DNA of 45,743 nucleotides. Origin: Oscillospiraceae bacterium. GTDB taxonomy: Bacteria > Bacillota > Clostridia > Oscillospirales > Oscillospiraceae. Made by a program: the position numbers and the translations under genes. The notes beneath the pieces are model-generated. The model ran no database searches and had not been told where the DNA came from. It saw only the letters and a list, made by a program, of their open reading frames with translations. Location: assembly GCA_017473225.1 (NCBI GenBank), contig JAFUMG010000012.1, positions 1-45,743 on the forward strand, read 5' to 3'. Of the stretch, positions 177-3,296 are shown one piece after another (position 1 is the stretch's first letter; every line of letters starts with the position of its first letter).

Positions 177-208
177 AACGTCCCCCGATGGGTGCATCGG
201 GGGACGTT
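177..208 (-). terminator. Terminator of the nrdD-nrdG operon
   Basis: Perfect 14-bp stem AACGTCCCCCGATG / CATCGGGGGACGTT with a 4-nt loop, starting 3 nt past the nrdG stop on the minus strand and followed by TTTTCTG. Confidence 0.85.
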
Positions 209-211
209 CTG

Positions 212-724
212 TCAATATTCACCCAGCCAGCGGCCGTTGGTGATGGGCACTGCCTTACCCGCGGCAAGGCTCTTGGGCACATCAATGATCCGCTGGTTCC
301 GGCTGCCCCGGAAGCTCAGCTCCAGGCTCCGCTCCGCCAGCAGGAAGGGGCCGTCGATGAGCACATTGATGGCGTCCAGCAGCTCCCGCTGTTCGGGGGT
401 GCCCGTCAGCAGCTGCTCGAAGGTGTAGCCGGAATAGGAGGCCACCTCGTAGCCCTGATCTTTCAGGAGCCGGGCCAGCTTGGCGAAGCCCGCGCCCTGG
501 GCGAAGGGCTCGCCGCCGGAGAAGGTAACGCCCCGGCAGAGGGGGTTGCTCCTTACGATCTCCACCAGCCGTTCCTCCTCCATGGCGGTGCCGCGGCCGA
601 AGGCCCAGGTCTCCGGGTTATGGCAGCCGGGGCAATGGTGGGGACAGCCCTGGGCGAAGATCGTGGTGCGGATGCCGGGGCCGTCCACGATGGAGTCTTC
701 TACGATGCCGGAAAGATCAAGCAT
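212..724 (-). CDS. nrdG: Anaerobic ribonucleotide reductase activating enzyme NrdG
   Basis: A 170-residue radical SAM enzyme. It cleaves S-adenosylmethionine to create the glycyl radical on NrdD, allowing oxygen-free reduction of ribonucleoside triphosphates in the cytoplasm. The cluster motif C27-PHH-C31-PG-C34 is of the CxxxCxxC type, preceded by the family signature VDGPGIRTTIFAQGC. SGGEPFAQ (about residue 69) is the usual SAM-binding GGE motif. Length is normal for NrdG. Its ATG overlaps the end of the upstream glycyl-radical ORF by 8 bases, so the two are translationally coupled, which fits a protein that must meet its substrate domain. A strong hairpin terminator follows. Confidence 0.95.
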   Translation of the reverse strand: MLDLSGIVEDSIVDGPGIRTTIFAQGCPHHCPGCHNPETWAFGRGTAMEEERLVEIVRSNPLCRGVTFSGGEPFAQGAGFAKLARLLKDQGYEVASYSGYTFEQLLTGTPEQRELLDAINVLIDGPFLLAERSLELSFRGSRNQRIIDVPKSLAAGKAVPITNGRWLGEY

Positions 725-878
725 TCTTCGTCAGGCCGTGCTTCACACGGTCCCGCTCCTCGGCCCGCTTGGCGTCGTTCCACTTGTCCATGGTGCCCAC
801 CAGATAACCGGTGATCCGGCGGATGCGCTCAAAGCCCACACCCTGGCCCATTTTTTCATTGTTGGATTTTGCAGTCAT
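717..878 (-). CDS. Separate glycyl-radical C-terminal domain of NrdD (53 aa)
   Basis: A tiny ORF with a good ribosome site (GGAGG, 8 nt before ATG 878). The 53-residue product carries RRITGYLVG at residues 20-28, then DKWNDAKRAEERDRVKH. This matches the extreme C-terminus of ordinary NrdD (RRVCGYLG, then a GK..E..RVKH-like tail), in which the glycine of the GY pair stores the radical; here that is Gly24. The main NrdD gene upstream stops before this segment, so this ORF probably supplies the radical-bearing domain in trans. It overlaps nrdG by 8 bases. Short proteins named as anaerobic reductase exist in my memory of clostridial annotations, but I cannot check that here. The alternative, a decayed remnant of a once-fused nrdD, is less likely given the clean start site. 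Confidence 0.82.
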   Translation of the reverse strand: MTAKSNNEKMGQGVGFERIRRITGYLVGTMDKWNDAKRAEERDRVKHGLTKNA

Positions 879-906
879 TATAATTACCTCCATATGTTGG
901 GGTTGG

Positions 907-1010
907 AAAGAATAATGCATAATTGAGGTATCGCTGCACGATGATTTTAATTTGTTTGCGAAGCAAACACCATAATTATTCATCATTCATTATTCATTAT
1001 TCATTTTTCA
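907..1010. repeat. AT-rich palindromic repeat between nrdD and its glycyl-radical ORF
   Basis: Outer parts are made of reiterated words: ATAATGCATAATTG on the left and ATTATTCATCATTCATTATTC on the right. They flank a conserved core ATGATTTTAA plus the hairpin GTTTGCGAAGCAAAC. The copy at 26604-26731 has the same plan (AATTGCGGTAT, ATGATTTTAA, a TGTGCGC-type hairpin) with different outer words, so this is a dispersed family. It fills nearly all of the 135-nt gap between the two nrdD parts and is far more AT-rich than its neighbours. Confidence 0.75.
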
Positions 1011-1013
1011 CTA

Positions 1014-3296
1014 TTACTCGATTCCCTGGAACGCGGGCATTTCAGGGTACATTTTTCTCAGCTCGTCGATCCGTTCCTGGGGGATCTCCTCACCCTCCCG
1101 GCGGCCGCAGCGGGGGCAGACGTCGCCGATGATGCCCACATAGCCGCAGATGGGATCCCGGTCCACGGGGTGGTTGATGGAGCCGTAGCCCACGCCGCAG
1201 TCGTGCATACAGCGGACAACAGCTTCAAAGGCTTCCACATTCCGGGCGGTGTCGCCGTCCAGCTCCACATAGCTGATGTGGCCGGCGTTGCACAGGGCGT
1301 GGTAGGGGGCCTCCAGGCGAATCTTATCATAGGCGGAAATATGATACCAGACGGGAATGTGGAAGGAGTTGGTGTAGTATTCCCGGTCGGTGATGCCGCG
1401 GATCTTGCCGTAGCGCTTCTGGTCCATGCGGATGAAGCGGCCGGACAGGCCCTCGGCGGGGGTGGCCAGCAGGGAGAAATTCATCTTCAGCTCCTGGGAC
1501 CGCTTGTCGCAGTAGTCTCGCATGAAGCCGATGATCTCCAGACCCTTCTTCTGGGTCTCCTCGCTCTCACCGTGGTGCTGGCCATAGAGGGCGGTCAGAG
1601 TCTCGGCCAGGCCGATGAAGCCGATGGACAGGGTGCCGTGCTTCAGCACCTCCCGCAGGTCGTCCTGGAGGGTCAGCTTGTCGGAGTCCAGCCAGACGCC
1701 CTGGCCCATCAGGAAGGGATAGTTGTAGATGTGCTTGTTCGCCTGGATCTCGAAGCGGTCCAGCAGCTGCTGGGCCACCAGCTCCAGCATGGCCTGGAGC
1801 TTCTCATAGAAGACCTTCTCATCGCCATTGCTCTCCAACGCCAGACGGGGCAGGTTGATGGAGGTGAAGCTCAGATTGCCCCGGGAATAGGCGATCTCCC
1901 GGGTGGGGTCGTAAACATTGCCCATGACGCGGGTGCGGCAGCCCATGGTGGCGACCTCCGTCTCGGGCCGGCCGGGGACATAGTATTGCAGGTTGAAGGG
2001 CGCGTCCAGGAAGGTGTAGTTGGGGAACAGCCGCTTGGCGCTGACCTTGCAGGAAAGGCGGAAGAGCTCATAGTTGGGGTCGCCCTCGTTGTAATTGACA
2101 CCCTCCTTGACCTTGAAGATGTGGATGGGGAAGATGCAGGTCTCGCCGTGGCCCAGGCCGGCGTCCAGCGCCAGCAGGATGTTGCGGATGACCATCTGAC
2201 CCTCGGGGGTGGTATCGGTGCCGTAGTTGATGGAAGAGAAGGGGGTCTGAGCGCCGGCACGGGAGTGCATGGTGTTCAGATTGTGGACAAAGCCCTCCAT
2301 GGCCTGATGGGTGTCCCGGTCGGTCTTCTTCCAGGCACGCTTCTTGGTGCGGCTGACCACCTTGGCGGAATCCCCCAGGGGCAGGTCATACCGCTTGGTC
2401 AGGGCGTAGATCACGGCCTCGTCGAAGGCGGGGGAATTTTCCAGCCGGGGCTGCTCGCCCACCTTGGCTTCCACGTCCTTCACCAATGCCTTGATGGTGG
2501 CCGTCTGCTCCTCCAGGTCCAGCCGGTCCTCCAGGGCTTCCGCCAGCAGCCGGTAGTAGGCCTTGCGGTAGGTCTTGGCGACGCCCTCGGCCATGGCGTA
2601 GTCAAAATTGGGGATGGACTGGCCGCCGTGCTGGTCGTTCTGATTGGACTGGATGGCGATGGCCGCCAGCGCCGCGTAGCTCTGGATGCTCTGGGGCTCC
2701 CGGATATGACCGTGGCCGGTGGAGAAGCCGCCGTGGAACAGCTTCAGAATGTCGATCTGGCAGCAGGTGGTGGTGAGGGAATAGAAGTCGAAATCATGGA
2801 TGTGGATGTCGCCCTCCCGGTAGGCCTTGGCGTGCTCCGGGCGGAGCAGATACATCTCATTGTAGGCCTTGGCGCCGGCGGAACCGATCTGGAGCATGGA
2901 GCCCATGGCGGTGTTGCCGTCGATATTGGCGTTGTCCCGCTTCATGTCGCTGACGCGGGCGTCGATGTTGGTGATCTCATCGATGGTCTTCATCAGGGCG
3001 GTATTGGCCTCTCTGGCACGGGTCCGGTTGGCCCGGTAGAGGATGTAGGCCTTGGCGGCGGCGTTGAAGCCATGGTTCATCAGCTGCCGCTCCACGGCAT
3101 CCTGGATGGCTTCGATGTCCGGGGCGCTGCCCACGCTGTGCTTTTCCAGATCCCGCTGGACGTCATTGGCCACCCGGGCGGCATCGGCGGCGTTGCCGTC
3201 GGAGGCAGCCTCCATGGCCCGCAGGATCGCGGCGGCGATTTTATTCTGGTCATATAAAACGACCCGACCATCACGCTTGATAATACTCTGAATCAT
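1014..3296 (-). CDS. nrdD: Anaerobic ribonucleoside-triphosphate reductase NrdD, main part without glycyl-radical tail
   Basis: Reduces ribonucleoside triphosphates to deoxyribonucleotides under anoxia. The 760-residue reading starts at ATG 3296 (MIQSIIKRDGR), where the ATP-cone allosteric domain begins; longer in-frame readings upstream run through the promoter. The ATP cone covers about residues 1-90, followed by the ten-stranded barrel with GGQSIPNFD and the IHIHDFDFYSLTTTCCQ segment. The C-terminus has a cysteine knuckle ICGYVGIIGDVCPRCGR, in which the first cysteine of the usual CxxC pair seems to be Asp. The ORF stops at MPAFQGIE and lacks the RxxGY glycyl-radical motif, which is found on the separate ORF at 717-878. 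NrdR boxes lie upstream. Confidence 0.93.
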   Translation of the reverse strand: MIQSIIKRDGRVVLYDQNKIAAAILRAMEAASDGNAADAARVANDVQRDLEKHSVGSAPDIEAIQDAVERQLMNHGFNAAAKAYILYRANRTRAREANTALMKTIDEITNIDARVSDMKRDNANIDGNTAMGSMLQIGSAGAKAYNEMYLLRPEHAKAYREGDIHIHDFDFYSLTTTCCQIDILKLFHGGFSTGHGHIREPQSIQSYAALAAIAIQSNQNDQHGGQSIPNFDYAMAEGVAKTYRKAYYRLLAEALEDRLDLEEQTATIKALVKDVEAKVGEQPRLENSPAFDEAVIYALTKRYDLPLGDSAKVVSRTKKRAWKKTDRDTHQAMEGFVHNLNTMHSRAGAQTPFSSINYGTDTTPEGQMVIRNILLALDAGLGHGETCIFPIHIFKVKEGVNYNEGDPNYELFRLSCKVSAKRLFPNYTFLDAPFNLQYYVPGRPETEVATMGCRTRVMGNVYDPTREIAYSRGNLSFTSINLPRLALESNGDEKVFYEKLQAMLELVAQQLLDRFEIQANKHIYNYPFLMGQGVWLDSDKLTLQDDLREVLKHGTLSIGFIGLAETLTALYGQHHGESEETQKKGLEIIGFMRDYCDKRSQELKMNFSLLATPAEGLSGRFIRMDQKRYGKIRGITDREYYTNSFHIPVWYHISAYDKIRLEAPYHALCNAGHISYVELDGDTARNVEAFEAVVRCMHDCGVGYGSINHPVDRDPICGYVGIIGDVCPRCGRREGEEIPQERIDELRKMYPEMPAFQGIE

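Follow-up and report, generated by a model that had tools for sequence, protein, structure and literature searches.

The DNA considered here is a stretch of 45,743 nucleotides (the window) from a gut bacterium of the Oscillospiraceae (assembly GCA_017473225.1, contig JAFUMG010000012.1), whose minus strand carries, in this order, an nrdD core (3296-1014), a gene of 53 codons (878-717) and nrdG (724-212). Very probably, this locus encodes a working class III (formate-type) anaerobic ribonucleotide reductase (RNR) made of two obligatory chains, the small one providing the glycyl radical in trans. The reading is built from sequence comparison, namely from gene anatomy, conservation, the selection on the small gene, its separation from the core in other genomes, and the fact that some genomes have no other detected RNR. 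An earlier note on this DNA had already proposed a radical supplied in trans, and conservation, purifying selection, far-apart genes and genomes with split NrdD as the only detected RNR all support that proposal. Its remark that such a design would be unusual holds less well than was thought: judging from the loci compared, the split recurs widely in anaerobic Bacillota.

Gene anatomy of the locus

The features are listed below, with coordinates of the window.

1014..3296, minus strand: nrdD core, class III RNR chain without the glycyl-radical loop, 760 residues (Pfam, NCBIfam, structure alignment)
717..878, minus strand: standalone glycyl-radical-domain (GRD) gene, 53 residues (Pfam and NCBIfam matches, structure alignment, selection)
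807..809, minus strand: codon of the predicted radical glycine G24 in RRITGY (sequence, alignment)
212..724, minus strand: nrdG, radical-SAM activase, 170 residues (TIGR02491 above cut-off)
3021..3287, minus strand: ATP-cone domain of the core, residues 4-92 (Pfam PF03477, E 3e-21)
1938..1940, minus strand: finger-loop cysteine C453 of the MGCR motif, proposed site of the thiyl radical (aligned with ATMGCRTRV of Prevotella copri NrdD)
1107..1148, minus strand: zinc-knuckle cysteines C717, C727 and C730 (DPICGY...CPRCG; sequence and alignments)
1017..1100, minus strand: C-terminal tail of the core, predicted helix (tail comparison; helix 740-749 in both folds)
1008..1016, minus strand: three consecutive in-frame stops, TAA TAG TGA, at the end of the core (sequence)
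905..1015 (about), minus strand: one copy of a palindromic repeat that recurs through the genome, situated between core and GRD gene (repeat search of the own genome, folding)
887..891, minus strand: GGAGG, ribosome-binding site for the GRD gene, just upstream of its start codon at 878
177..208, no strand given: perfect 14-base inverted repeat just past nrdG, a probable terminator (sequence)

The two chains complement each other. The core ends in ...PEMPAFQGIE, followed by TAA TAG TGA, and matches positions 1-531 of the 562 in Pfam NRDD (E 9e-184), plus the ATP cone; the 53-residue protein matches positions 533-562 (E 1.2e-8), so that the two open reading frames (ORFs) tile the profile with almost no gap. 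NCBIfam NrdD tails also match the small protein, with E-values down to 4e-15, and at these values the match is well beyond chance. The RxTGY glycyl-radical motif is absent from the core and present in the small protein, which contains RRITGYLVG and DRVKH. The earlier description of a main ORF ending at MPAFQGIE with no RxxGY motif is thus confirmed, as is that of a separate ORF with its own GGAGG, the RRITGYLVG motif, the RVKH tail and an 8-base overlap with nrdG (717-724). Alignment with single-chain NrdD proteins leads to the same picture, with the parts tiling one chain and no complete glycyl-radical site seen in the main ORF. Among Pfam families, Gly_radical PF01228 is not listed for the small protein, for which NRDD is the only one at E <= 1. 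Public databases may name such small GRD proteins NrdD.

Core and GRD share one reading frame in the window, so the split is made by the stops and a spacer and not by a change of frame. The locus also has features of its class: a glycyl-radical motif encoded beside the core together with nrdG, as in class III, and an NRDD barrel with the finger-loop cysteine in MGCR, a formate-type feature. C453 is invariant in the core alignments. According to a part of PMC9669993, the methionine-containing finger-loop motif goes with formate-type class III enzymes.

Another point concerns the zinc knuckle, where the window core has DRDPIC in place of the CLDC of P. copri NrdD. The zinc site of class III NrdD has four cysteines, and only three occur in the window core; the fused rows of the alignment look the same, and for this reason the three-cysteine site seems unrelated to the split.

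The end of the core has a character of its own. Tails like ERxxELRKxYPxxPxFxG are common to many, but not all, split cores, and from its sequence this tail is a possible docking element. By eye, in the alignment and among the tails, the split core tail (ERIDELRK) resembles the lost glycine strand (ERIRRITG). Other cores, those of G122, G377, G321 and G086 (the last from family f54), end just before the glycine position.

Conservation, selection and separation of the two genes

How far does this arrangement extend beyond the window? Named genome contigs were scanned with ten split GRDs, and the best 80 of at least 584 relatives were examined. In 64 of these 80 best loci a short ORF for the GRD closely follows an NrdD ORF that lacks it, a count that is no frequency because the ranking of relatives favours split forms. 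Eight loci are fused, and eight show no core nearby, three of these with less than 1 kb upstream. NrdG was recognised in 55 of the 64 split loci. Only a core piece shorter than 300 codons is visible in six of them, five being at a contig edge; in one of the six (L045) the last 52 core codons are in frame, unlike the remainder. Both the reading frame of core relative to GRD and the gap between them differ in other split loci. Named strains are represented by Gemmiger sp. An87 (L057), Massiliimalia timonensis (L066), Bacterium 1XD42-1 (L078) and Oscillospiraceae bacterium MH27-2 (L108), most other loci coming from metagenome assemblies or uncultured bacteria. Two loci, L049 and L197, apparently from the same genome, show two tandem standalone GRD genes behind one NrdD core.

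Samples at other ranks add to this picture. Within the window's genus, 7 of 37 genomes, the window's included, have this type of NrdD; six show the split, and one, G015, is cut off within the gene by the end of its contig. An even sample of the order (117 genomes) gave an NRDD match in 112, and among the matches listed a core stopping at profile positions 530-540 was counted by eye in 27, including the window. Across 199 genomes of the phylum a GRD match was found in 89, mostly fused (by eye); the GRD lies in a frame of fewer than 200 codons in 16 of these genomes (window included), in 7 of them beside a fused one.

A tree of NrdD cores was made with 110 rows (70 split, 40 fused; G217 present under two labels, L150 and L173), by a quick method, with uneven sampling and some long branches. 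Partial, duplicate or redundant rows, 31 of 141, were left off on purpose, G039 among them. Two earlier alignments (A3 and A4) were discarded because MAFFT had displaced core tails or GRD rows. The tree needs at least nine changes between split and fused forms, four of them forced by well-supported branches; this minimum implies several gains or losses of the split.

Purifying selection on the small gene is strong: over a 41-codon block, the window against 14 relatives, the pooled ratio of nonsynonymous to synonymous differences (pN/pS) is 0.041. A GGAG precedes the GRD start in 12 of 15 sequences, window included, and AGGA in the other three (by eye).

Must the two genes be neighbours? Family f54 indicates that they need not be. 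NRDD is found in 30 of its 31 genomes, two of which (G266, G284) have only a fused NrdD. The core match falls short of the profile end in 28 of the 31: 26 stop at 529-540 and G277 at 478, while in G280 the match runs to 552 with a stop inside. For these 28, counting by eye placed the GRD within 500 bases in 11 and elsewhere in 16, with one in which it was not found; location on different contigs does not by itself prove distance. One split member, G192, also has a second, full-length NrdD. The clearest case is G241, a single contig with the core at 1,466,662-1,468,881 and the GRD beside nrdG at 1,038,106, about 428 kb apart.

G241 has no second NrdD and no class I or II RNR, as detected with PF02867. 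Closer to the window, G039 and G051 each show a single NrdD, which is split, and no PF02867 match. Among genomes chosen for split or truncated NrdD, PF02867 is absent in 10 of 13 and in 25 of 33.

Proposed mechanism and rival explanations

In the proposed mechanism, the nrdD core would supply the ATP cone, the barrel, the thiyl-radical cysteine and the zinc knuckle, and the 53-residue chain the glycine loop and the C-terminal tail. NrdG, encoded directly behind the GRD gene and overlapping it, would put the radical on the glycine of the small chain. This chain would bind the core where single-chain NrdD has its in-cis domain, and would pass the radical to the core cysteine for catalysis. Docking may involve the core tail and the xGxGV leader of the GRD.

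Known structures allow a comparison. The barrel and cysteine loop are those of single-chain NrdD from P. copri (8p23), phage T4 (1h78-1hk8) and Streptococcus thermophilus (9d3x); the ATP cone is shared with the P. copri and S. thermophilus enzymes and is not aligned in T4. The glycine-loop sequence of P. copri NrdD recurs in the small protein of the window. Unlike in these enzymes, the glycine domain of the window is a separate chain, and the core ends with a different tail. On 8p23, the core can be aligned as far as its own residue 735, and residues 707-738 of that structure, which contain RITGYLVGT, align with the small protein. In the relevant part of PMC11226230, the radical glycine of P. 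copri NrdD is Gly711 and the same domain holds the zinc site, a layout that puts the split point between the zinc site and the glycine loop.

The locus was also folded, as a read-through of the two in-frame ORFs into one hypothetical chain. The second fold, with 58 alignment rows, has a mean predicted local distance difference test score (pLDDT) of 81.6, with a confident core and a low-scoring spacer. Against T4 NrdD (five entries, 1h78-1hk8) the root-mean-square deviation (rmsd) is 2.1-2.8 A over 516-537 residues. The alignment crosses the linker into the glycine loop and ends at model residues 831-835 against T4 583-587, such ranges giving end points only; the radical glycine of T4 NrdD is presumably residue 580, a number taken from a reference title. 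The model is compatible with a small chain filling the usual slot and is no proof of it.

Several observations weigh against the two-chain reading. Thirty of the 37 genomes of the genus lack this NrdD type, most of them having a distant NrdD type instead. Class I or II RNR is present in 3 of 13 and 8 of 33 genomes chosen for a split or truncated NrdD, and some of those without it, such as G021 and G378, have a second NrdD; the split form is not the sole source of RNR everywhere. With the window's genome at 78.6% completeness, a further RNR may simply be absent from the assembly, and in incomplete genomes the absence of PF02867 is no proof. As for the fold, pLDDT is about 60-66 in the GRD leader (the segment before residue 828) and below 50 for residues 828-859, glycine included, so that the glycine is placed only weakly in the model, and in part by the homologous rows. 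The first fold, with 16 rows, did less well (mean pLDDT 69.6). The comparison with P. copri 8p23 reaches residue 831, with 622 residues aligned at an rmsd of 9.6 A; the best-ranked P. copri rows go no further than model residue 709, and other P. copri entries end at 708-710.

What else could the locus be? The small protein might be a repair part only, a spare of the GrcA/YfiD kind that replaces oxygen-damaged glycine domains and is not an obligatory subunit. YfiD does this for pyruvate formate-lyase (PMC8683613, in part), and genomes with a fused NrdD and an extra GRD gene exist. However, the window and the other split forms have no in-cis glycine to replace, so the small part is needed from the start, and this alternative is quite improbable for the window. 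As the origin of the GRD, a spare part remains likely.

A second alternative is a broken gene, in which a normal nrdD was cut by insertion of the repeat or by an assembly error, the remainder being a relic. Both ORFs are in one frame and the mobile-looking repeat lies exactly in the gap. Located at about 905-1015, the repeat has 44 matches at E <= 0.001 on both strands of the window's own genome, itself included, and 28 places in this 1.78 Mb draft (counted by eye); it folds better than shuffled sequences (z -2.8). The earlier note had linked the separation to this repeat and had asked for the split in relatives with and without it. It is present also without it: five relatives of the same genus (G021, G011, G007, G013 and G020) share the core ending of the window and carry a small GRD gene, and their gaps cannot accommodate the repeat. 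The repeat therefore did not cause the split, and is ruled out in that role. With relatives split in different gaps and frames, 64 of 80 loci split, a pN/pS of 0.04, a ribosome-binding site of its own for the GRD, and the distance between the genes in G241, a broken gene is very unlikely.

Equally hard to sustain is the idea of one chain after all, joined by stop read-through, recoding, or RNA or protein splicing. The shared frame in the window would allow it, but three consecutive stops intervene, the GRD has its own start and ribosome-binding site, the frame differs in other loci, and the parts lie on different contigs in other genomes and, in G241, at a distance of about 428 kb. Lastly, a core without RNR activity that does something else, with the GRD serving another NrdD, would suit the many same-genus genomes that also carry a distant NrdD of about 725-760 residues, but it is exceedingly improbable given that split and fused rows alike keep C453, C717, C727, C730 and many barrel residues unchanged, that core, GRD and NrdG form one operon in the window, and that no other RNR was found in G039, G051, G241, G377 and G321.

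Possible spare parts, known split enzymes and viral copies

How might a two-chain enzyme of this kind have arisen? A series of genomes, most of them draft assemblies, suggests that the spare part came first and the obligatory subunit later. In genus g229, G357 is a single contig: its NrdD is fused, and a GRD gene lies about 372 kb from it. The cores of its relatives G377 (...ERVERIKL) and G321 (...ERVARIKA), both draft genomes, end just before the glycine position; each has a single GRD gene on another contig and no PF02867 match. The G357 and G377 cores are 78% identical over the last 480 residues, and the GRD proteins have their N-terminal part in common. Family f80 offers a parallel pair: G286 has a fused NrdD and a GRD gene, and G122 has a core ending in FERIHRITE with a GRD gene similar to that of G286, and in G122 a class I/II RNR is present as well. 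A fused NrdD with an extra GRD gene occurs in G357, G365, G293, G346, G286 and G043, and in seven genomes of the phylum sample.

A second type of GRD protein, of about 85-110 residues with an extra N-terminal part, was noticed at loci L148-L160, L164, L165, L190, L191, L206, L207, L213, L214, L216 and L217, and in several genomes it occurs beside a fused NrdD. By its sequence it is a candidate spare part for NrdD. Five such proteins of 87-101 residues, scanned with Pfam and NCBIfam, matched only NrdD/NRDD models, plus one stray match below threshold, and their N-terminal part matched no family in either collection.

With regard to known systems, GrcA/YfiD and T4 Y06I are close to the window, being small proteins with a radical-glycine domain that act in trans to a larger enzyme, pyruvate formate-lyase (PMC8683613, in part). 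Unlike for GrcA/YfiD, the partner in the window is NrdD, which has no glycine of its own from the start; a partner with an in-cis glycine domain is found only in other genomes, those with fused NrdD and a GRD. Split RNRs are known as well. In phage Aeh1 (class I) and in NrdJa/NrdJb of Pseudomonas aeruginosa (class II), one catalytic chain is made as two polypeptides, and the part of PMC3267527 at hand names class I and II cases only. The window is like them in that two genes, conserved in relatives, encode one RNR catalytic chain, and differs from them in RNR class and in that the detached piece carries the radical storage site. Six phage cases have nrdD in more than one ORF, as in the window, although the pertinent part of PMC3653736 describes fragmented coding regions and not a conserved separate glycine domain.

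Sections of PMC11226230 and PMC9669993 place the class III glycyl domain at the C-terminus of the enzyme, and within the openly licensed full-text literature no description of a separate NrdD glycyl-radical gene was found, subscription papers and preprints being outside that scope. Split class I and II RNRs and a trans glycine domain for pyruvate formate-lyase are already known; a conserved two-chain class III RNR with a trans glycyl-radical subunit would join them, and it may be known elsewhere. Such an enzyme would complete the set of split RNR classes. With radical storage apart from catalysis, activation by NrdG, docking and oxygen damage would each become measurable separately. Whether spare-part glycyl-radical proteins exist beyond pyruvate formate-lyase, left as speculation in the part of Andorfer et al. 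2021 (PMC8683613) that takes it up, also becomes testable.

The GRD also occurs on viral contigs, where the best 80 of 396 relatives were examined (L218-L297), the phage status of these contigs resting on the collection's label plus lysis genes. In 65 of the 80 loci the GRD occupies a frame of 40-216 codons with no NrdD in the available stretch, 54 of them with at least 2.5 kb upstream; five others are split with a core, seven are fused and three lack a clean ORF. The 65 standalone GRDs represent 55 different GRD blocks, and 61 of them have a loose form of the G-x-G leader that precedes FERIRRITGY in the window protein. The shortest viral GRDs have 46 residues, and some genes are of 46-60 codons. 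Three loci were tested (L223, L248, L297): in each, the GRD is directly followed by a gene with matches to PHROG holin families, and in two of them, L248 and L297, a gene matching endolysin families comes next. Seven of the 80 loci have a holin-like motif after the GRD. Against PHROG families, the window's 53-residue protein matches only the tail of NrdD.

Such phages may use the GRD on the NrdD core of the host, much as T4 Y06I serves pyruvate formate-lyase. A broader and tentative proposal, to which we give somewhat less than an even chance, is that the GRD is an exchangeable cartridge: it would have begun as a spare part beside fused NrdD and become obligatory after repeated loss of the in-cis glycine, and as a tiny gene in phages of anaerobes, in some next to holin and endolysin, it would run or repair the host core, feeding phage DNA synthesis. 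If this is true of the phage copies, a very small auxiliary gene acts on an essential host enzyme.

Two further records concern nrdD genes filed under phages. The unverified 'Bacteriophage sp.' scaffold MT837933.1 (L193) carries a fused NrdD that, over the core stretch compared, is 100% identical to the one in G357; it is either a phage copy or bacterial DNA misfiled as phage. In Eggerthella phage EL753P1 (L192), nrdD encodes a protein that lacks the glycine domain and carries an intein-like insertion at its cysteine loop, and a separate GRD stretch with an interrupted reading frame, annotated as hypothetical, lies downstream.

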